Under the pieces are notes generated by a model. That model had not been told where the DNA came from. It did no database searches and was given only the letters and a program-made list of their open reading frames with translations. Shown here one piece after another: positions 1,585-63,134 of a stretch of 63,134 nucleotides of DNA; position 1 is the first letter of the stretch; each line of letters opens with the position of its first letter. Made by a program: the position numbers and the translations under genes. Source of the DNA: a virus; the IMG/VR virus record IMGVR_UViG_3300032677_000031, positions 1 to 63,134 of that record; one strand, written 5' to 3'.

Positions 1585-1625
1585 ACAGCCCTCAGCGATC
1601 AACGCTGGGGGCTGTCTGTTTTTTG
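1585..1625 (+). terminator. Intrinsic terminator with no gene upstream
   Basis: ACAGCC-CTCAGCG (1585-1597), loop ATCAA, CGCTGGG-GGCTGT (1603-1615) forms a 13-bp stem with a single G-U pair, followed by a T-rich tail at 1617-1624. This is the strongest rho-independent terminator seen in the window. No rightward coding gene lies upstream, so it either ends a short non-coding transcript from about 1420 or insulates the early region. Confidence 0.8.
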
Positions 1626-1668
1626 GGCGATTTCAAGGCCTTTTGGTAAGCGCAAATAGAAACAGATT

Positions 1669-1899
1669 GAAAAGTACCCCCTATTTGTATTTCTCTAAAA
1701 GAGATATCTTTCAATTATCTGTCCAAGAATAGTAATAATAATAAAACCTAGAAATATGATAAAAAAGGCCTTTATGGGGTACTATGGTACCCCAATAGCG
1801 ATTTACTGGTTGGTTTGTCAGGATAATTCAAATTGGCATTCTTGGACAGCTAATTGATACTTTCCTCTTTTACCGATTGTGCAAATAGGGGCACTTTTC
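1669..1899. repeat. 231-bp concentric interrupted palindrome
   Basis: Four pairs of blocks are reverse complements about one centre (1784). Outer: GAAAAGTACCCCCTATTTG (1669-1687) against CAAATAGGGGCACTTTTC (1882-1899), with one substitution and one indel. Then AAAAGAG (1697-1703) against CTCTTTT (1865-1871). Inner: TCAATTATCTGTCCAAGAAT (1711-1730) against ATTCTTGGACAGCTAATTGA (1838-1857), with one mismatch. Core: GGGGTAC-TATG-GTACCCC (1776-1793), perfect. The 8-bp gaps between the AAAAGAG and inner blocks are equal on both sides. GCAAATAG also recurs directly at 1652 and 1881. It ends 57 bp before the first early gene. Candidate roles are a replication origin or a symmetric multi-protein binding site. 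Confidence 0.85.
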
Positions 1900-1956
1900 T
1901 ATGTGTTCTAATTCGCGCTTGACATAGTTCTTGGGCCGTGCAATCTTCCCCATCCT

Positions 1957-2985
1957 ATGAAAACAGCCTTCATCCGCCTACCGATCCCCCGACTACTCGC
2001 CTCCGCCATCGAGCGTTCTCACAAGGAAATCCCGCTGGCCGGCGTCCTCTACCAACCCGAGTCCGACGCGATTCTCCTATTCGCAAAGGACCCGGAGACC
2101 CAGATCGAAGACCTCGAAAACCTCACCTCCTACTGGCCTTGGTCTTTCCTGTGCGTTCAGGTACTCTCCCAAGTCGCCGTCCACAACCCCTCTTCCCAGC
2201 GCCTCGTGCTGATCGTGTGGCTGTCTGGCAAGATACCCGCAGCCGACGGCTTCACCCTAGCCTTCCGCTACTGCCCGCCGACGGGAATCTTCTTGCCTAC
2301 CTCTCGGCTCTCCAACCTCACTGTAAGGCCTGAGAAAAAAACCTTTGACTTGGCGCTCCCGGCGCACAAGGTATCCGAACCCCTACCTTCAAAAAACAAC
2401 AAGCCCAAGCTTGCGGCCCTACGCAGGAAACAAAACGTGGCCTTGAAGCTCGCTCTCTCCCTGCGGTTCCCAAACGTGGTGAGCGTTGTCCAAGACCCGC
2501 GCAACGGAGTCGGCACGCTTTCCATCACCAACACTAGCCTACGCACCCTGCTCATCCACAAGCAGTGGATACTTGACGCGGTCGCTGAAACTGGCATTGA
2601 CCTTGTGGCCAAGGAATGGGAGGTGAAAAAATATCGTTCCAAGGTCCGCGGCGTCCACTATATCGTCAAGTTCCCGATCGACGAGAGTGACGAAAAAAGC
2701 GTGACCTCGCGCTTCCTGCTTGAGCGCGAGAAGAAGATTCTCGCAAGAGACTTCTCGACCCTCGGCCAAGAGATCCGTTCGCTCACTGAGGACCCGGCAT
2801 TCTTGAAGCAGGTTCACATCAAGCGGTTCAAGAAACGCGCAGAGCACTTCAACGAGAAGACCTCGGGACGCCGCGGTCGCCCGCACAAACTTGCAGTGTA
2901 TGGCCCGGTCGCTGCCAAGCTGGAACGACAGGCGCGAGAAAAAGACTTGCCAAGTAACTACGCACCTGCTACATCTCAACCATGA
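1957..2985 (+). CDS. Early protein with AT-hook-like motif, unknown
   Basis: 342 residues, no family recognised. The N-terminal 110 residues are hydrophobic and proline-containing (alternating strands such as AILLFAKDP and RLVLIVWLSG). The C-terminal half is strongly basic with a helical stretch, and residues about 304-310 read RRGRPHK, matching the RGRP core of AT-hooks, which bind the minor groove of AT-rich DNA. It is the first rightward gene and starts 57 bp from the concentric palindrome, so a role as origin-binding or early regulatory protein is plausible but unproven. TTGACA at 1919-1924 could be a -35 element that would give an almost leaderless mRNA. The stop overlaps the next ATG (ATGA), starting a long chain of translationally coupled genes. 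Confidence 0.75.
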   Translation: MKTAFIRLPIPRLLASAIERSHKEIPLAGVLYQPESDAILLFAKDPETQIEDLENLTSYWPWSFLCVQVLSQVAVHNPSSQRLVLIVWLSGKIPAADGFTLAFRYCPPTGIFLPTSRLSNLTVRPEKKTFDLALPAHKVSEPLPSKNNKPKLAALRRKQNVALKLALSLRFPNVVSVVQDPRNGVGTLSITNTSLRTLLIHKQWILDAVAETGIDLVAKEWEVKKYRSKVRGVHYIVKFPIDESDEKSVTSRFLLEREKKILARDFSTLGQEIRSLTEDPAFLKQVHIKRFKKRAEHFNEKTSGRRGRPHKLAVYGPVAAKLERQAREKDLPSNYAPATSQP

Positions 2986-3445: not shown

Positions 3446-4227
3446 ACCAACACACACCCGACAACGAGGTCGCAAGGCTCCGTGAGGCTCTTGAGCTTAT
3501 CGCTTCACCCATGCGGCCTGATGGAACATACAACAGAGACAGGAGAGCTTGCGAGCTACTTGCCAAGGAAGCACTCGCCACCGCGCCAGAGGAACCCAAA
3601 ACCTCTGCACATATTGATAAGTGCATAGGAAATGTAACGAAATTCACCCATGAGGGGAATCTCAATACAAAGTTCAAACAACTGCATGAGGTCGCTTCAA
3701 TCATAGTCGAATACATCGAAGATCCAGACCGCAGAAGTTACTACAGGTCGCAGATTCAGCAACTCACCCCAACGACAGAGGAAACTTCTGAAAAGGACAC
3801 ATCCACCGAAACCAGTCCTTCTCAAAAGGACACTGAATGGCGAGAGCTTGGCCCTGACGAGATGATCTGCGAGAACGACGAACTTTTTTACGAGCCTAAT
3901 GGAAGATCGTGGGAAAGGTGTGGAGAGACTTATTCGGGGCTGAAACCAAGAAAGTTAACGAACTACCGCTTCCGCACCCGCCGACCGTTGCCGAACACTT
4001 CGGAATCTCCGAAGAGTTCAAAGCAGGTGGAGATGCCGCTGGAAGATGAGCTAGACTACCTTACCCGCGAAGCATCAAGGGCATCCGACATTCACAACCA
4101 TGTTTTGATCGTGGACTGTCTCCGCTACCTCCGCGACGAGATCCAGAAGATCCACGAACGTCAGGAAGATTACCGCAAGGCACTCGACCTGTTCTGCAAG
4201 CAACTCGTAGACTTCAAAACCAAATGA
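3442..4227 (+). CDS. Phage hypothetical protein, 261 aa
   Basis: 261 residues, hydrophilic. An N-terminal helical region (residues 8-50) is followed by a Ser/Thr/Glu-rich linker (about 110-130), then a small module around residues 131-180, EWRELGPDEMI then NYRFRTRRPLP, a pattern common in short phage early proteins (typically W-R-x-L-x-x-x-E then RxRTRRPLP). The C-terminal 60 residues form a long amphipathic helix. Overlaps both neighbours by ATGA. The function of this motif is unknown to me; the fused arrangement suggests a linker joining two interaction domains. Confidence 0.65.
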   Translation: MNQHTPDNEVARLREALELIASPMRPDGTYNRDRRACELLAKEALATAPEEPKTSAHIDKCIGNVTKFTHEGNLNTKFKQLHEVASIIVEYIEDPDRRSYYRSQIQQLTPTTEETSEKDTSTETSPSQKDTEWRELGPDEMICENDELFYEPNGRSWERCGETYSGLKPRKLTNYRFRTRRPLPNTSESPKSSKQVEMPLEDELDYLTREASRASDIHNHVLIVDCLRYLRDEIQKIHERQEDYRKALDLFCKQLVDFKTK

Positions 4228-11741: not shown

Positions 11742-11941
11742 GCACAAAACACACACCTGAATCACGAGCCAGCCGGCTCAAAGAAATAACCAAGGCCATG
11801 AAGTCAAAGGATCTCCACCCTACGGAGCGCCGCAAACTAGCCAGTGAGCTAGGGGGGCTGCGTGGGGCTGGATCCCTTGCACGCCGAATGGCAGCCATAA
11901 AAGGGAATCATGTACGACATGGAAAATCTTGGCTCGCTTAA
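11738..11941 (+). CDS. Small basic helical protein, 67 aa
   Basis: 67 residues, Arg/Lys-rich (ASRLKEITKAMKSKDLHP, ERRKLASELGGLRGAG). Coupled to the kinase by ATGA. Its 3' end is overlapped by the inserted HNH gene, so its C-terminus (KGNHVRHGKSWLA) may have been altered by the insertion. No family recognised. Confidence 0.5.
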   Translation: MSTKHTPESRASRLKEITKAMKSKDLHPTERRKLASELGGLRGAGSLARRMAAIKGNHVRHGKSWLA

Positions 11942-12521
11942 CCGTTTTTGGCAGGGGGAGGTTAACCCCGATGGAAAAGTTTTTTGGGAATACCAACGGG
12001 GAAAACCTGTTTGGCTATCCCGTGAAAAATTTTTAGACCGGCAAGACAAAAAAAGAAAACGTGCTCAAGCTAGGTTTACCGTTAGGTATGCTACGGATCA
12101 GGATTATCGAGCTCGAACTTTAGCAAAAAATTTAGCCGGGTATTACCGAAACAGGGCTGAGCGGGTTATTAAGGCGTCTAGGTATTCAACACTTCGCCGC
12201 AAGCAAAACCCCCTAGCAAAGCTATCTCACCAAATCGGTTCCTTGATAAGAACTTCTTTTGGCCGCAAAGGGCTTAAGAAGCGCAGCAAAACTGAAACGC
12301 TCTTGGGTTGCTCGATTTTCGATTTCCGAAAACATATAGAAAATCAATTCCTCCCCGGGATGACGTGGGAAAACCGTGAAGAATGGCACGTTGATCACAT
12401 CATTCCGATAGCGTCGGCCCGTACAGATGAAGAGCTTATGAAATTAAATCATTACACCAACCTACGCCCTCTTTGGGCAATAGATAACCTAAAGAAAGGA
12501 GCTAAAGTAAACCTTGTATGA
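11910..12521 (+). CDS. HNH homing-type endonuclease 1
   Basis: 203 residues. N-terminal module at 15-42 (QGEVNPDGKVFWEY, then PVWLSREKF), a long basic helical linker (45-130), then the HNH core: LPGMTWENREEWHVDHIIPI (about 148-167) and LNHYTNLRPLWAIDNLKKGA at the C-terminus. The HVDH pair and the N in YTNLRP supply the betabetaalpha-metal nuclease residues. Closely related to the gene at 14063 over the last 60 residues. The DNA is visibly more A+T-rich than its neighbours. It overlaps the ends of both flanking genes, as free-standing homing endonucleases often do. The start could also be ATG 11919. Confidence 0.85.
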   Translation: MYDMENLGSLNRFWQGEVNPDGKVFWEYQRGKPVWLSREKFLDRQDKKRKRAQARFTVRYATDQDYRARTLAKNLAGYYRNRAERVIKASRYSTLRRKQNPLAKLSHQIGSLIRTSFGRKGLKKRSKTETLLGCSIFDFRKHIENQFLPGMTWENREEWHVDHIIPIASARTDEELMKLNHYTNLRPLWAIDNLKKGAKVNLV

Positions 12522-12812: not shown

Positions 12813-14073
12813 CCTGAGCGACACCGGACTGGGGAAAACGTTCCATGCCCTCGCAGCTGTTAAGAGCTTTGACGTGCCCTTCGTGGTCATCTGCCGCGCT
12901 TCGTCGCGCCATAAATGGGAACAGGCGGTGCGGGACTTCGATCTTCACCAGAACTGCTTGGCCGTGGATTCGTGGCAGCGGTTTACCAATGGACGTAATC
13001 ACCGGGAGATCGTCACAAGACAGGCGTCCGGTCGCTCCACGTCTTATTCGTGGAATCCTGCAGCCCCTACGGTTATTATTTTTGACGAGGTGCAGGACGC
13101 TGGTGGACAGACGTCGCTCAACAGCCAGCTGCTCATAGGCGTCGGTAGATCCAGCAAGACCTACGCTATATGTCTCTCTGCCACGGTCGCCGACAGCCCT
13201 TTGAAGCTCAAGGCCCTTGGCTTTCTGTGCGGCCTCCACAACCTGAGCAACTTCTACGGCTGGGCAATGGACCACGGCTGCGGCAAATCTCCGTTCGGAT
13301 ACAATCAGCTCTACTTCAAGCCGAATCAAAGCAAGTGGGTTATCCCGAAGCTGCGCGATGCTCTGGAGCCGTATGGTGTGAGAGTCTGCCGGGATACGGT
13401 GAGTGAATACCTGCCTCAAGAGACCGTAGAGATCGAGCTCTGGGACGTGGGATCTCCCACCAAGTTTGTCCGGGACGCGCTGGATCGCCTCGAGCATACC
13501 CGAGACGAAGACTTGCTGAAGCACGAGGACGGAACGCCCGGGGCGGTCGAGCAGATGCGTGACCGGCAGGAGGCCGAGCTGCGTAGGCTGGTGCCGCTGG
13601 TAGCTGAGATCAAAGCCGCGGTCGAGGGCGGGATGTATTGCCCGGTGTTCCTGAATTTCACGGCTTCGGTAGACACACTCAAAATCATGCTGCAGTCGGA
13701 AAAGATTTCCGTTGGCGTGTTTGACGGACGTGACAAGTGGAAGCGCGAGGTGGACCGGGAAGACTTTATGAAGGGCGAGCTGCGAGTGTTGATCCTGCAG
13801 AGCGCTGCCGGCAGCGCCAGTATTGATTTGCATGACATTGTCGGCGGTCGTCCCCGGATGACGTTTATTTCTCCCCACTATCAATCGGAGGTAATGTTGC
13901 AAATGCTTGGACGAGCTGTTAGATTTGGTGCCAAAACCCCCGTGATCCAGAGAATCTGTTTTGCTGAAGGAACAATCGAAGAAAAAGTTTTTCGCGTTGT
14001 TGAGCAGAAAGCTAGGAACGTGAATGCTTTGAATGACGGGGTTTGGGATGCTGCTTTTAGAAATGCAAACTAA
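12703..14073 (+). CDS. SF2 (SNF2-like) DNA helicase
   Basis: 456 residues. Q-like motif LRPYQTEAAGKL (residues 14-25), Walker A DTGLGKT (40-46), motif II IIFDEVQD (DEVQ, about 124-131), motif III LSATVADS (about 150-157), and in the second RecA domain QMLGRAVRFG (motif VI, about 399-408). Such SF2 proteins open DNA at phage origins or recombination intermediates. The usual DEAH is DEVQ here. Overlaps a small ORF at the start and the HNH gene at the end. Neighbours are all replication genes. Confidence 0.85.
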   Translation: MTKILTTSSGIINLRPYQTEAAGKLADALQKHGVAVDLSDTGLGKTFHALAAVKSFDVPFVVICRASSRHKWEQAVRDFDLHQNCLAVDSWQRFTNGRNHREIVTRQASGRSTSYSWNPAAPTVIIFDEVQDAGGQTSLNSQLLIGVGRSSKTYAICLSATVADSPLKLKALGFLCGLHNLSNFYGWAMDHGCGKSPFGYNQLYFKPNQSKWVIPKLRDALEPYGVRVCRDTVSEYLPQETVEIELWDVGSPTKFVRDALDRLEHTRDEDLLKHEDGTPGAVEQMRDRQEAELRRLVPLVAEIKAAVEGGMYCPVFLNFTASVDTLKIMLQSEKISVGVFDGRDKWKREVDREDFMKGELRVLILQSAAGSASIDLHDIVGGRPRMTFISPHYQSEVMLQMLGRAVRFGAKTPVIQRICFAEGTIEEKVFRVVEQKARNVNALNDGVWDAAFRNAN

Positions 14074-14680
14074 GCGTTACCGACAGGGGGAAATTCGGGG
14101 AGACGGTATGGTTTTTTGGTCTTACAACGAAGACTGCAAAAATGGCGAGTATTGGATTACTCCCGAAAGGTATCAAACCCGAAAAGAAAAACGTAGGATA
14201 GCCCAACGACGTTGGGTATTACAAAACCCAAGCTCTAGTAAGGAGACCTTGAGGAGATATAAAAATAAATTTCCTGAGAAAGTTGCAGGATGGAGAAAAG
14301 CATGGTACGCAGCAAACCGAGATAAAATAAATGCTGCCCGGAGGGAACAGGTAGCCCTCCGAAAGAAAAAAGATCCTGTGTTTTCCTTGGCTTCAGGTTT
14401 TAGAAGTCGGGTAGGGTTGGAGTTCCGAAAGAAAAATTTTACCAAAAGGTCTTCAGCTTTTAGGATATTGGGGTGTACGTTTGAACAGTTACAAAAACAC
14501 CTAGAAGCCCAATTCCTTCCCGGCATGACGTGGAAAAACCGCGGAGAGTGGCACATTGACCACATTGTCCCACTTGCCACGGCTAAAACCGAGGAGGACG
14601 TTGTTCGGCTCAACCACTACACAAATCTTCGCCCGTTGTGGGCTATAGACAATTTGAAAAAAGGCGCTAAGTCCGCATAA
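14063..14680 (+). CDS. HNH homing-type endonuclease 2
   Basis: 205 residues from ATG 14063 (a start at 14033 would overlap the helicase further). Module at residues 8-37 (QGEIRGDGMVFWSY, then YWITPERY), basic linker, then LPGMTWKNRGEWHIDHIVPL and LNHYTNLRPLWAIDNLKKGA, nearly the same as endonuclease 1. This marks a within-genome duplication 2 kb apart. More A+T-rich than the adjacent helicase and exonuclease genes. The stop lies inside the 23-bp element preceding promoter P2. Confidence 0.85.
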   Translation: MQTKRYRQGEIRGDGMVFWSYNEDCKNGEYWITPERYQTRKEKRRIAQRRWVLQNPSSSKETLRRYKNKFPEKVAGWRKAWYAANRDKINAARREQVALRKKKDPVFSLASGFRSRVGLEFRKKNFTKRSSAFRILGCTFEQLQKHLEAQFLPGMTWKNRGEWHIDHIVPLATAKTEEDVVRLNHYTNLRPLWAIDNLKKGAKSA

Positions 14681-22282: not shown

Positions 22283-22675
22283 TCAATCAGAAAGTGCTTC
22301 CTCTACCGCATCTCCGGATGCCTGTACCCAATCATTGTGATCATCCCAATCGTGGTTCAGGGCCTCAGCAACTATCCTTTCTACCTGAGTGGCAATGAGA
22401 TGCTGCTTGTGGTAAGGGGCATCTGGATGGTCGCCGGGCTCCTCGAGGCTTGGGTTGTCAATATCCCACTGGGATACGGCCTCCTCCTCGATGCCGGCCT
22501 CTTTGCAGAGAAAGGCTTCGACCATCTCGTGCAGGGCAACTAGGAAGGCACTGCGGTCGTTCTTTTCATGCTCCGCCACCGTCACGTGGAGATGGCCGTC
22601 CTCGTTGAACAGCCAATCTCCACAGGTGGGGTACCGCAAGCACTCAGGTGCTTGGGTCTTGAGGGTGATTTTCAT
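22283..22675 (-). CDS. Conserved phage protein with HExxE motif
   Basis: 130 residues. GDWLFNEDGHLHVTVAEH, then FLVALHEMVEAFLCKEAGIE (HEMVE at about 49-53), HPDAPYHKQHLIATQVERIV and a final DWDDHNDWV. This set is recurrent in phage genomes (H-E-[LM]-[VI]-E with DPDAPYRxQH). The HExxE plus later His/Glu suggest metal binding, but enzymatic activity is not established. Overlaps the HNH gene by 4 bp. Confidence 0.6.
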   Translation of the reverse strand: MKITLKTQAPECLRYPTCGDWLFNEDGHLHVTVAEHEKNDRSAFLVALHEMVEAFLCKEAGIEEEAVSQWDIDNPSLEEPGDHPDAPYHKQHLIATQVERIVAEALNHDWDDHNDWVQASGDAVEEALSD

Positions 22676-23337
22676 AGAGGCTGGAGTTCGTGTGGGAGTT
22701 TGTCGGATTTTGAACGGTTTATCCGCATGGGTATTATCTGCATATTGGTATGGATATGATACCCTCCCCTAGAGATAGGTACAATGTGATCTACTTCATG
22801 GGGGATATTTAAGCAATCGGAAACCCTGCGACTACAATCGTATATCGTAGTTATGATGTTTTCCTGACCCCGATGAAGCATTAAAATGGCGTTTCTTTTT
22901 CTGCTTCGGCGTTTAGCAGCAAGCTTGTTGGTTTGGTCAGGGTTAGCCAACCTCCATTTTGTTTTTATTGCTCGACTTTTTTCCCGATTGTTTTCTTGCC
23001 ACTTTCGAGAATACTCAATCCTCCTAGCGCTGCACCTAGTGTCGGAAGCTTTTTTCCGTTTTCTGTGCTCTTCAGGATTCTCTAATCTGAATTGATTTGC
23101 CCTTTTTTTAGCTGCTTCTAATTGATTACTGAAAACCTTGGGGGATGCCCAAATTTCTCGCATGACGTATTCCCCCTTACGCTTTCGGTATTGCTTTACA
23201 TAAGTAGAAAACAAAAAACCATCTGAGATACGAATGTCGCCACGAAGATATTTTCTTACTGTACCGTCAGGAAAAAGTTCCCCCCGTTTTTGACGGGGGT
23301 TCCCTTTGCTCGGTAGGTAGTCTAACTCTTCCGCCAC
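22672..23337 (-). CDS. HNH homing-type endonuclease 3
   Basis: 221 residues. An expanded N-terminal module, RGELFPDGTVRKYLRGDIRI then EIWASPKVF (residues 18-70), is followed by a very basic helical linker (72-150) and the HNH core PHEVDHIVPISRGGYHIHTN then MQIIPMRINRSKSDKL. The nuclease core belongs to a different subgroup from endonucleases 1 and 2, so the same N-terminal module is joined to a different core. A+T-rich compared with the adjacent genes. Confidence 0.8.
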   Translation of the reverse strand: MAEELDYLPSKGNPRQKRGELFPDGTVRKYLRGDIRISDGFLFSTYVKQYRKRKGEYVMREIWASPKVFSNQLEAAKKRANQFRLENPEEHRKRKKASDTRCSARRIEYSRKWQENNREKSRAIKTKWRLANPDQTNKLAAKRRSRKRNAILMLHRGQENIITTIYDCSRRVSDCLNIPHEVDHIVPISRGGYHIHTNMQIIPMRINRSKSDKLPHELQPL

Positions 23338-60315: not shown

Positions 60316-60392
60316 TGGCTGCCGCGCTAGGACTTGAACCTAGAAAAGCCGCTTTCAAAGAGCGGTGAGTCTACCAATTCCTCCACACGGCA
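60316..60392 (-). tRNA. tRNA-Gln (anticodon TTG), CCA encoded
   Basis: Minus strand 60392-60316. Acceptor TGCCGTG pairs with CGCGGCA (one U-G); anticodon stem CCGCT/AGCGG with loop CTTTGAA gives anticodon TTG; T-arm CTAGG-TTCAAGT-CCTAG; discriminator G and encoded CCA at 60318-60316. The U1-A72 pair and G73 are glutamine identity features. The D-stem is short and the D-arm looks leucine-like, but the variable loop is short. It reads CAA (and CAG). Confidence 0.92.
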
Positions 60393-60400
60393 ATGAGTTT

Positions 60401-61027
60401 TCATTTCGGCAAAGCAAAATCTTTTTTGTTGTACTTCCGGCAATTCCAATATGCCGGAAGGATTTGAAGGTTCGTGTGATGGTGTTTGCCGTTTTTAGAA
60501 AGGGGAACGATATGGTCTACCTCCCAAGGATTCCCTAAACAACTTTCAAGCCGTCTGCAACATTCGGTGAGGCAGGTTTCAATCTTTATATCATGATTTG
60601 GGTCGATGGATTCTTTACGAAGGGATCTTCGATAACGGTTTTGTGACAGGACGACTGAATAATTCTTTCTTTTCCATGCCACAAGATTTTTCCTGACCTT
60701 CTCGGGATTTTTACTTTGCCAACGCTTAACCGATTGCAAGCTTTGGTTCTTTAGCTCTTCGTATTTTTCTGGAGATACCCACCATTCTCCATCCTTGCAG
60801 TTGGGCGCATACCTCCAAAAAATTTTTCCGCTTACTGGGTTGACTTCTCCCACTTTTCTTGGGGTTCGGTCACTAAACAAAATGCGTCGCCGTTGGGTTG
60901 TCTCTTTTAGCTTTTGCTTTTTGGCTAAAAATTTATCAGGCGTGAGCCACAGTTCTTTACCGTGGATGACCGCCCAAAAGATTTTCCCTGTTAGGGGGTC
61001 TATTGTTCCGTTTTTTAGTTTCATCAA
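60401..61027 (-). CDS. HNH homing-type endonuclease 4, tandem module
   Basis: 208 residues. Carries two copies of the N-terminal module: NGTIDPLTGKIFWAV then ELWLTPDKF (6-33) and VGEVNPVSGKIFWRYAP then EWWVSPEKYE (59-90). After a basic linker comes the HNH core NPWEVDHIVPLSKNGKHHHT and NLQILPAYWNCRKYNKKDF. ATGA overlap with the terL stop. Position directly downstream of terL fits the frequent association of HNH genes with terminases, but the module duplication points to a mobile element of this phage's own family. Confidence 0.85.
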   Translation of the reverse strand: MMKLKNGTIDPLTGKIFWAVIHGKELWLTPDKFLAKKQKLKETTQRRRILFSDRTPRKVGEVNPVSGKIFWRYAPNCKDGEWWVSPEKYEELKNQSLQSVKRWQSKNPEKVRKNLVAWKRKNYSVVLSQNRYRRSLRKESIDPNHDIKIETCLTECCRRLESCLGNPWEVDHIVPLSKNGKHHHTNLQILPAYWNCRKYNKKDFALPK

Positions 61028-62892
61028 TCTTGACTAAAATCTATAAACCCTGCTTTGTCAATTAAGGTTTGGGAAAACTGTTTACCTTGAAACTCCCGAG
61101 TTGGTTTGGGGGTCGTCATCGTCGGTACGCTTCCGCTGCGCTGGCGGAACAAGAACACGAGTAAGCTCAGTGAGTCAAGTGCATCCGGTGACGGCTGGCG
61201 TGTCCGCTTGCAATACTCGGCCTTGGCCTCGACGCGTACCAGCCCCCGACCCTTCTGCTTGTACCGGCGACCCGTCGCCTGCTTGACCAGCTCCTCGTGC
61301 CGGAAGCCCGGTGAGATCTTCAGGTAGCCGAACTCAATGAACTTGCCGAGTCCGAAGATCAGCTCGGTCACAACCCCGTTGTACATCTCGTTTGCCTTCT
61401 GCGTGTCGTCGCCCAGCACGTGCGTGTCGGTGGCGGCCTCCGAGTAGTTGACGCCCATGACCTCGGGGCCAAAGATGTTCTTCAGGTTGTCGTGCACGCC
61501 TGACCCGTTGCCGGTTCGATCCACGCATACCCAGCCCGCTCCGATCTTCATCTGGTTGCAGAACCGCATGATCGCCTGCGTCTGCTTTACGGTGTCGCCC
61601 TTCGGGAATGGCATCTGGCTGTCCACTTGCACGACGACCCGCGGCTTGTCGAATGCTTGGAACTTGCCGCTCAGTGGCGTCCATCCGTCGCTCAGACCGA
61701 ATCTTCCGTACGTGCACATGAGCTGGTCGTTGCCCTCGAGCGCCAAGTCAAAGCTGGCCAGCGGCACGACGTTGCCGACGAAGCGTACGATGCCGACCGC
61801 GTTGTCCATCATGGCCGGCGTTATGATCGCCATCGACACACCCTCCTGCGGGAACCATCCGCGTGCCATCGTGAAATACTCGCCGGTACGCCCGCGGCTC
61901 TCGTAGTTCATGAAGCCCTCGTAGGTCTGGAGACCGGGGTACACGACCCTCTTCTCCATCACGTTCTCCGATCGCGCCGCGTCCAGTCGCAGGACGTGCC
62001 ATCCGTCTCGGCTACGCCACTCGTAGTCCTCCTCGCAGTCGATCGAGCCCCAGCCCCGCTTCGGTTCGCACAGCCGGCCAAAGTGGCTGGTGCGGTCTTT
62101 CGGGTTGGATGCCGCGAAGACCTTGATGTGACCGGCGTTCTTAGTGTCTGCGGTTGAAAGCAAATTGTAACATCCTTCCCATACGCCGGCTGGGATTTCC
62201 TCCGCCTCGTCGAGGATGACGAAGTTCCGGGTCAACTTGCCGAATCGGTTGTGCGCTTTGCCATGACGAGGTGACGGGTGAAATCCGCGTAGCACGCCGA
62301 AACCTGACTCACCCTTGGGGATCGCCACAAGGTGGATGCCCTGCTTGCTGTCGCTATTCGCTTGGATGCTCTTCACCAGATCTTCTGAGTTATCCATCGG
62401 AGGTTTGACCAGTGCCGTGCGGTGGAAGTTCTTGATCGACGCAAAGATGTTGCGCTCCGCGTGCTCGGCCGTGAGCGAGATGACCTTGATCGACGTGTTG
62501 CACGGATCCTGCAGCCAGCTCAGGTAGAAAAAAGCTGCCGCACCAAACGACTTACCCATAGCGCCGGCTCCTTGCACCAGTAACTTGTCATGCTGAAACA
62601 AGCATCTCCACACCTCACGGGAGCTTTCTGGTCTCCAGTTGTAGGTTTCCCCTCCCCACAGGATCGTTGCAGCCGCCTCAAACTGGTCTCCCTGCAGGAG
62701 GGTGTCCACATACCCCCAAACCACGTTCCGAGCGATTTCTGGCCTAATCTCGAGCGATTGCGGGGGGTTTGCGGTGAGGTGCGTGAGGATCCAGTGGGCA
62801 GCGTACAGGATGCCCCGCTCCTCGTCCCGGTCGGCTTCGGCTCGAATTTTTTCTGCGATAGCAACAAGTTTTGCGACGGCCGGCTTTAGCAT
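61024..62892 (-). CDS. terL: Terminase large subunit
   Basis: 622 residues. ATPase: Walker A VQGAGAMGKSFGA (about 107-119), Walker B NFVILDEAEEIP (about 222-233). Nuclease (RNase H-like): ASFDLALEGND (first Asp, about 374-384), VCVDRTGNGSGVHDNL (about 444-459) and SPDALDSLSLLVF (C-terminal Asp). It packages DNA into the procapsid through the portal. Its ATG overlaps the stop of the HNH remnant by 7 bp, and its stop overlaps the next HNH gene. terS lies just upstream across the contig ends. Confidence 0.92.
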   Translation of the reverse strand: MLKPAVAKLVAIAEKIRAEADRDEERGILYAAHWILTHLTANPPQSLEIRPEIARNVVWGYVDTLLQGDQFEAAATILWGGETYNWRPESSREVWRCLFQHDKLLVQGAGAMGKSFGAAAFFYLSWLQDPCNTSIKVISLTAEHAERNIFASIKNFHRTALVKPPMDNSEDLVKSIQANSDSKQGIHLVAIPKGESGFGVLRGFHPSPRHGKAHNRFGKLTRNFVILDEAEEIPAGVWEGCYNLLSTADTKNAGHIKVFAASNPKDRTSHFGRLCEPKRGWGSIDCEEDYEWRSRDGWHVLRLDAARSENVMEKRVVYPGLQTYEGFMNYESRGRTGEYFTMARGWFPQEGVSMAIITPAMMDNAVGIVRFVGNVVPLASFDLALEGNDQLMCTYGRFGLSDGWTPLSGKFQAFDKPRVVVQVDSQMPFPKGDTVKQTQAIMRFCNQMKIGAGWVCVDRTGNGSGVHDNLKNIFGPEVMGVNYSEAATDTHVLGDDTQKANEMYNGVVTELIFGLGKFIEFGYLKISPGFRHEELVKQATGRRYKQKGRGLVRVEAKAEYCKRTRQPSPDALDSLSLLVFLFRQRSGSVPTMTTPKPTREFQGKQFSQTLIDKAGFIDFSQD

Positions 62893-63023
62893 AACTTACA
62901 CCCTTTTCTAAGGTTGATTGCGGCGGGCAACACCTGAAGGTTGGAACGTTTCACATACCCCCGGAAGCGCCAGCCGTCTTCGCGGGTCTCGCCGATTTTT
63001 CTTTTGGTAACTTCAGATAACAT
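62886..63023 (-). CDS. 45-aa core-deleted HNH remnant
   Basis: Starts inside the terminal repeat and ends over the terL start (ATGCTAA). IGETREDGWRFRGY (residues 10-23) matches the N-terminal module of this phage's nucleases and SNLQVLPAAINLRKGCK (27-43) matches their C-terminal NLQILPxxxN / NLRPLWAIDNLKKGAK segment; the linker and catalytic HNH between them are missing. Between terS and terL, a usual HNH site. Its intact frame and coupling to terL suggest it is still translated. Present only once on the circle. Confidence 0.65.
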   Translation of the reverse strand: MLSEVTKRKIGETREDGWRFRGYVKRSNLQVLPAAINLRKGCKLC

Positions 63024-63134
63024 ACAAAAGAAACAATGGGTTTAAGTCAATGTTTACAGAGTAAATAATCATTAACGCCATTATTGCACTGGTCATTGAT
63101 CATTAAACCCTACGTTATCAGACGTTAAATCAGC
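63008..63134. repeat. Direct terminal repeat, right copy
   Basis: Exact copy of bases 1-127. Positions 63093-63134 duplicate the last part of the terS coding region (86-127), so this is a duplicate of the terS 3' end and not a second gene. Joining the two copies places terS directly upstream of the terL operon on the minus strand. Confidence 0.95.

Follow-up and report, generated by a model that had tools for sequence, protein, structure and literature searches.

What does a long stretch of two-fold-symmetric DNA do beside the first early gene of a phage known from metagenomic sequence? The window, by which we mean the whole stretch analysed (63,134 nucleotides, IMG/VR record IMGVR_UViG_3300032677_000031), begins and ends with the same 127 bases (1-127 and 63008-63134), which indicates a complete circular assembly, so that the window represents a closed circle holding a complete phage genome and the record ends are not telomeres. 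Its minus strand carries the late genes, including those of TerS (86-637) and TerL (61024-62892), and its plus strand the early genes, among them an A-family DNA polymerase, a DUF5906 helicase-primase, a DUF2800 exonuclease, an SF2 helicase and a Holliday junction resolvase. A search of the phage genes found no tyrosine integrase or recombinase, and the window DNA, TerL and gp342, the product of the gene next to the symmetric element, had no matches in phage GenBank records. The element lies where the early and late units diverge, immediately 5' of gp342, and its right end is close to position 1957.

Mirror-image blocks about position 1784 had been pointed out in a first-pass annotation, and they are present at that place and with that centre (1669-1687/1882-1899, 1696-1703/1865-1872, 1712-1730/1838-1856 and 1776-1782/1787-1793). 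When all centres were scored within 140 bp, 1784.0 reached 84 of 140 mirror pairs, the runner-up in 63 kb being 63. The symmetry is indeed beyond chance, as that annotation held, with a z of 8.7 against local composition and a gapped left-versus-right arm score of 44.5, far above the 10.8 +/- 1.7 (maximum 17.5) of 300 dinucleotide shuffles. The limits first given, 1669-1899, enclose these blocks but proved too narrow: the arms reach 1648 and 1920, so that the element measures about 273 bp and not 231. It is the strongest palindrome of the genome and reads nearly the same on both strands. Its parts and immediate neighbours are the following.

1585 to 1628, plus strand: rightward intrinsic terminator, insulating the palindrome from upstream transcription
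1648 to 1730, plus strand: left arm of the palindrome, 79-83% complementary to 1838-1920 in two ungapped pieces
1731 to 1837, no strand: asymmetric core between the arms, 73% AT in the TerS-side half versus 60% in the gene-side half
1776 to 1793, no strand: short central dyad GGGGTAC-TATG-GTACCCC, read from the sequence
1838 to 1920, plus strand: right arm of the palindrome, with a mirror score far above shuffles
1919 to 1947, plus strand: possible early promoter TTGACA-17-AATCTT, found by eye; it overlaps the right arm at its outer end
1957 to 2985, plus strand: gp342, the proposed palindrome-binding protein and replication initiator, with homologues solely in eight palindrome loci

Elsewhere in the genome, the second-best mirror signal (centre 44057, 63/140, z 5.4) falls in a structural gene with tail-fibre-like matches. 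An Rfam scan over the palindrome gave no match at the gathering score; the highest-scoring family, CrcZ, reached 19.1 bits where 95 are required.

Relatives were gathered as 80 loci from TerL scans of IMG/VR, to which scans with the polymerase and the arm motif added contig G013; other contigs matching one arm motif, such as L034, were set aside as unrelated chance matches. Strong palindromes occupy the same place in L007, L010, L014, L032 (the same as G013), L059, L060 and L062. It had been asked whether relatives that retain the flanking gene lose the symmetry, and they do not: all eight gp342-bearing genomes keep a palindrome of different sequence, a count whose members are not independent, since the genomes are all metagenomic, several are fragments and they are interrelated. 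In this regard, a profile search located gp342 homologues in exactly the window and the seven palindrome loci, always immediately adjoining the palindrome, and found none in the remaining loci screened, nor in 23 additional relatives whose records were searched in full. Relatives that lack gp342 and are represented by complete or long sequences have a comparable palindrome nowhere in them. Among them, the complete genome G015, which carries distant counterparts of the window's replication genes, has neither gp342 nor palindrome, and its AT-rich part overlaps a coding region and holds no comparable array; the absence of both from G015 counts against an origin function. A mirror signal in another relative without gp342 (L126 10758, corresponding to G020 57845; 65/140, z 6.1) lies inside the TerL coding region and is regarded as unrelated to the palindrome.

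The palindrome and gp342 also vary together. Across 28 genome pairs, palindrome similarity correlated with gp342 identity (Spearman 0.69, Mantel p 0.015), with a partial correlation of 0.69 after correction for TerS, and the correlation with TerS was weaker (rho 0.44, Mantel p 0.057). Individual pairs illustrate the same trend: the window and L007 have TerS proteins 86% identical, gp342 proteins 18% identical and palindromes that cannot be aligned; the window and L059, whose gp342 proteins are 37% identical, have alignable palindromes; and L059 and L062, with TerS 88% identical, have palindromes that are weakly similar. The sequence of the palindrome thus follows gp342 and not the terminase or the replication genes. 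The comparison with G013 shows an exchange of the whole unit, as the two genomes share 92-95% DNA identity through most of the 5.2-22.7 kb interval, replication genes included (polymerase 97% identical), and nothing aligns over about 0.9-4.6 kb, where the early leader, the palindrome and gp342 are replaced. Palindrome and gp342 sit together in this one replaced block, and the replacement in G013 has its own symmetry. With every gp342-bearing relative having its own version of the palindrome, gene and palindrome have the look of a joint DNA-docking module.

A closer view of the arms reveals a recurrent motif, RCRAATWGAAA, at mirrored positions in seven of the eight palindromes, flanking the AT-rich asymmetric core of about 100 bp. 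Palindromes of the L007 type, found in five relatives, hold four copies at about -102(-), -60(+), +60(-) and +102(+), and in all five the outer-to-inner spacing is 42 bp, which corresponds to four helical turns. L059 and the window have instead tandem copies 9-10 bp apart, some with one or two mismatches, at -135 and -126 mirrored at +126 and +135 in L059, and at -127 and -117 mirrored at +117 and +127 in the window. The strong palindrome of L060 lacks the motif, which counts against the origin reading. The copies in the window are the following.

1652 to 1662, plus strand: motif copy GCAAATAGAAA, exact, the sole exact copy in the window
1662 to 1672, plus strand: motif copy ACAGATTGAAA, one mismatch
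1684 to 1694, minus strand: weaker motif copy AGAAATACAAA, two mismatches
1896 to 1906, minus strand: mirror motif copy ACACATAGAAA, one mismatch
1906 to 1916, minus strand: mirror motif copy GCGAATTAGAA, two mismatches

The motif was defined on these same sequences, the clade of the window serving as a partly held-out test; with a matrix built from the L007 clade only, 4 of the 14 best sites in the window genome (>=10 bits) fell inside the 273-bp element, where about 0.06 were expected. Moreover, the seven other records, about 161 kb in total, contain 15 exact copies, every one of them inside a palindrome, and a motif so confined does not look like that of a regulon. The arms do co-vary, in line with a check proposed in the first annotation: within a five-member clade, 16 of 78 mirrored pairs had changed on both sides, and pairing between the arms reached 73.8% at register 0, collapsing at a one-base slide to stay at or below 46% when slid. 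These copies are probably sites recognised by a protein.

The gene product next to the array is a likely candidate for such a protein. The AT-hook-like motif ascribed to it earlier is GRRGRPHK at the C-terminus of the window protein, with GKRSPGRPRK in the closest homologue, that of L059. Such tails are missing from the other gp342 clade; in these two proteins they agree with gp342 as the binder. The gp342 family matched nothing in Pfam, PHROGs, NCBIfam, PADLOC or PDB and showed no recognised initiator domain, no RepA_N match was obtained in Pfam among the family members scanned, and protein scans of genome contigs gave no gp342 relatives. Structure models reached a pLDDT of 57.5 in the first and 73.2 in the second, and a Foldseek search of PDB and BFVD returned no hit with E<=0.001 and no confident fold. 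A LAGLIDADG or TBP-like fold was considered for the resemblance in the order of helices and strands and is not put forward.

Altogether, a motif that recurs at mirrored, helically phased positions and persists as its surroundings change points to a protein-binding array, and the co-inheritance of gp342 with the palindrome makes this protein the likely binder. We estimate a probability of roughly 0.8 that gp342 binds the adjacent palindrome, whose motif copies would form a two-fold-symmetric array of sites for it. A number of gp342 molecules would occupy the mirrored motif copies of the left and right arms and pair with one another across the centre of the palindrome. A further step, on which the odds appear about even, is that this pair constitutes the replication origin of the phage and its initiator. 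According to such a mechanism, gp342 would help to open the AT-rich half of the core, where the phage helicase-primase and the A-family polymerase would then be loaded. The origin is suggested by the AT-rich core, by the restriction of the array to a single locus and by the analogy with the RepA/origin pair of PLE and with SaPI and SCCmec. The core spans about 80-110 bases between the arms, mostly unmatched and asymmetric, and its AT bias points toward TerS in all eight genomes, with 58-85% AT in the TerS-side half; in the three long genomes that have a palindrome (the window, G005 and G013) this is also the most AT-rich 250 bp of the genome. An AT-rich region adjoining the motif sites, as expected of an iteron-type origin, is therefore present. 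On the other hand, GC skew, proposed earlier as a check for an origin, and AT skew do turn near the palindrome but track gene orientation, and because the turn coincides with the change in orientation, it lends the origin no independent support. The original proposal of an origin or a symmetric nucleoprotein switch accordingly still fits best, on the strength of the conserved symmetry and the co-varying arms, but has to stand without the skew.

The main rival to an origin keeps gp342 on the arms and removes its role in starting replication: gp342 would loop the DNA and thereby control transcription from its own promoter and perhaps that of the divergent late unit. Transcription control is possible since the array abuts the probable gp342 promoter, which lies where the right arm ends on its outer side, and the position of the element at the early/late divergence, directly 5' of gp342, would suit it. 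The -10 of that promoter falls under the scanner threshold, so that it is absent from the scanner list, and the promoter scan detected no conserved sigma-70-like promoter in the palindrome core. An operator-like motif, CACCCATGRGGGGAAT, is also repeated in the region, at 1461-1476 and 3645-3660 (two copies versus 0.04 expected), and L007, L014 and L032 likewise have it upstream of their palindromes. Exact copies of the arm motif, however, are not found elsewhere in the relatives, as noted, and an element of some 270 bp that includes a conserved AT-rich core exceeds what simple autoregulation would usually require. Apart from this core and the size, a switch accounts for the observations almost as well as an origin does, and we regard it as the less likely of the two, if the most serious of the alternatives.

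Pairing of the arms with each other, as a long hairpin of RNA (for instance transcribed as bottom-strand RNA) or of single-stranded DNA, is considerably less probable. The arms can fold strongly, the paired changes and the dependence on register described above are what a stem would leave behind, and mismatches lean toward G-U on the bottom strand (50 versus 21, pooled p 0.005), a bias that is nevertheless partly compositional, absent in the window and drawn from interrelated sequences. A pairing stem is disfavoured because it would need neither a repeated motif nor equal-length unmatched spacers, and the symmetry is concentrated in blocks that hold one motif repeated in both orientations, with just such spacers between them. 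In addition, an arm is often closer to the same arm of a relative than to its own opposite arm, and the 'loop' would be about 80-110 nt long.

The remaining readings are disfavoured. A packaging site (cos or pac) of the nearby terminase is very improbable: TerS lies about 1 kb from the palindrome in all eight genomes, but the palindrome does not track TerS, as the pairs of window with L007 and of L059 with L062 make clear, and relatives with TerS but without gp342 have no palindrome. A telomere-resolution site of a linear-plasmid prophage is largely refuted. Large concentric inverted repeats beside an early gene do resemble the telRL regions of N15- and PY54-like phages (PMC10612081), but no protelomerase (PF16684) was found in the window and the seven relatives by a search that was positive in a control genome, no tyrosine recombinase was found, and the central ~100 bp are not palindromic. 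A transposon remnant with inverted ends, a reading for which the long imperfect inverted repeat might speak, is barely credible: the sequence is single-copy in the genome, holds one and the same position in eight phages whose versions mostly cannot be aligned, and shows no target duplication.

If the gp342-palindrome pair acts as an origin, its closest parallels are replicons in which the initiator gene and its binding sites are neighbours. Iteron-type theta origins such as those of lambda O, P1 and F combine repeated binding sites with an AT-rich stretch, located within the initiator gene or next to it, and the phage element too has repeated sites and an AT-rich stretch. The iterons of lambda O, P1 and F are mainly direct repeats, whereas the motif copies of the phage stand in strict two-fold symmetry. 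In SaPI origins, oppositely oriented repeats flank an AT-rich stretch. The SaPI replication gene adjoins a series of short repeats to which its product binds, and both SaPI and SCCmec origins sit beside their replication genes (PMC7581432). The SaPI Rep is itself a helicase, whereas gp342 shows no such domain, and the SaPI array lies 3' of its gene, whereas the phage palindrome is 5' of gp342. In PLE, a phage satellite of Vibrio cholerae, the initiator gene makes up a unit with its noncoding origin, as gp342 and the palindrome appear to do, and the DNA-binding part of the initiator varies in step with the origin and is exchanged together with it (PMC8263062, PMC7145576). The PLE RepA, however, is a RepA_N protein acting on three ~30-bp semi-palindromic iterons, whereas gp342 has no RepA_N match and the phage array is one ~270-bp dyad as a whole.

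It may be proposed, more tentatively than the origin itself, that the pair defines a new class of phage replicon, in which an orphan initiator family and a fully two-fold-symmetric origin of ~270 bp are exchanged as a unit between nearly identical genomes. An uncultured phage group provides a small exchangeable module of DNA and protein with a testable recognition motif, whose eight natural versions are ready-made specificity tests. Were it an origin, strict two-fold symmetry together with an orphan initiator would amount to a new way to start phage DNA replication.

Other features of these genomes were recorded in passing. Three endonuclease VII/HNH-like proteins, possibly homing endonucleases, are encoded within or at the end of the early region (11910-12521, 14033-14680 and 22672-23337). 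A tRNA-Gln gene (TTG anticodon) lies at 60316-60392 on the minus strand, and a tRNA near TerL is also present in L007, L010 and L014. Upstream of the palindrome, a conserved structured-RNA candidate occupies 1189-1280 on the plus strand of the window, with counterparts on the minus strand of L007 (8480-8577), L014 (2155-2262) and L010 (1470-1570). It matched no Rfam family and consists of a stem formed by TCGGGGGAGG and CCTCCCCCGA plus a kink-turn-like AGTGAGG/CCTGACC part, with 15 consensus pairs, compensatory changes in three of them and, upstream of it in L007 and L014, an extra insert roughly 50 bases long.
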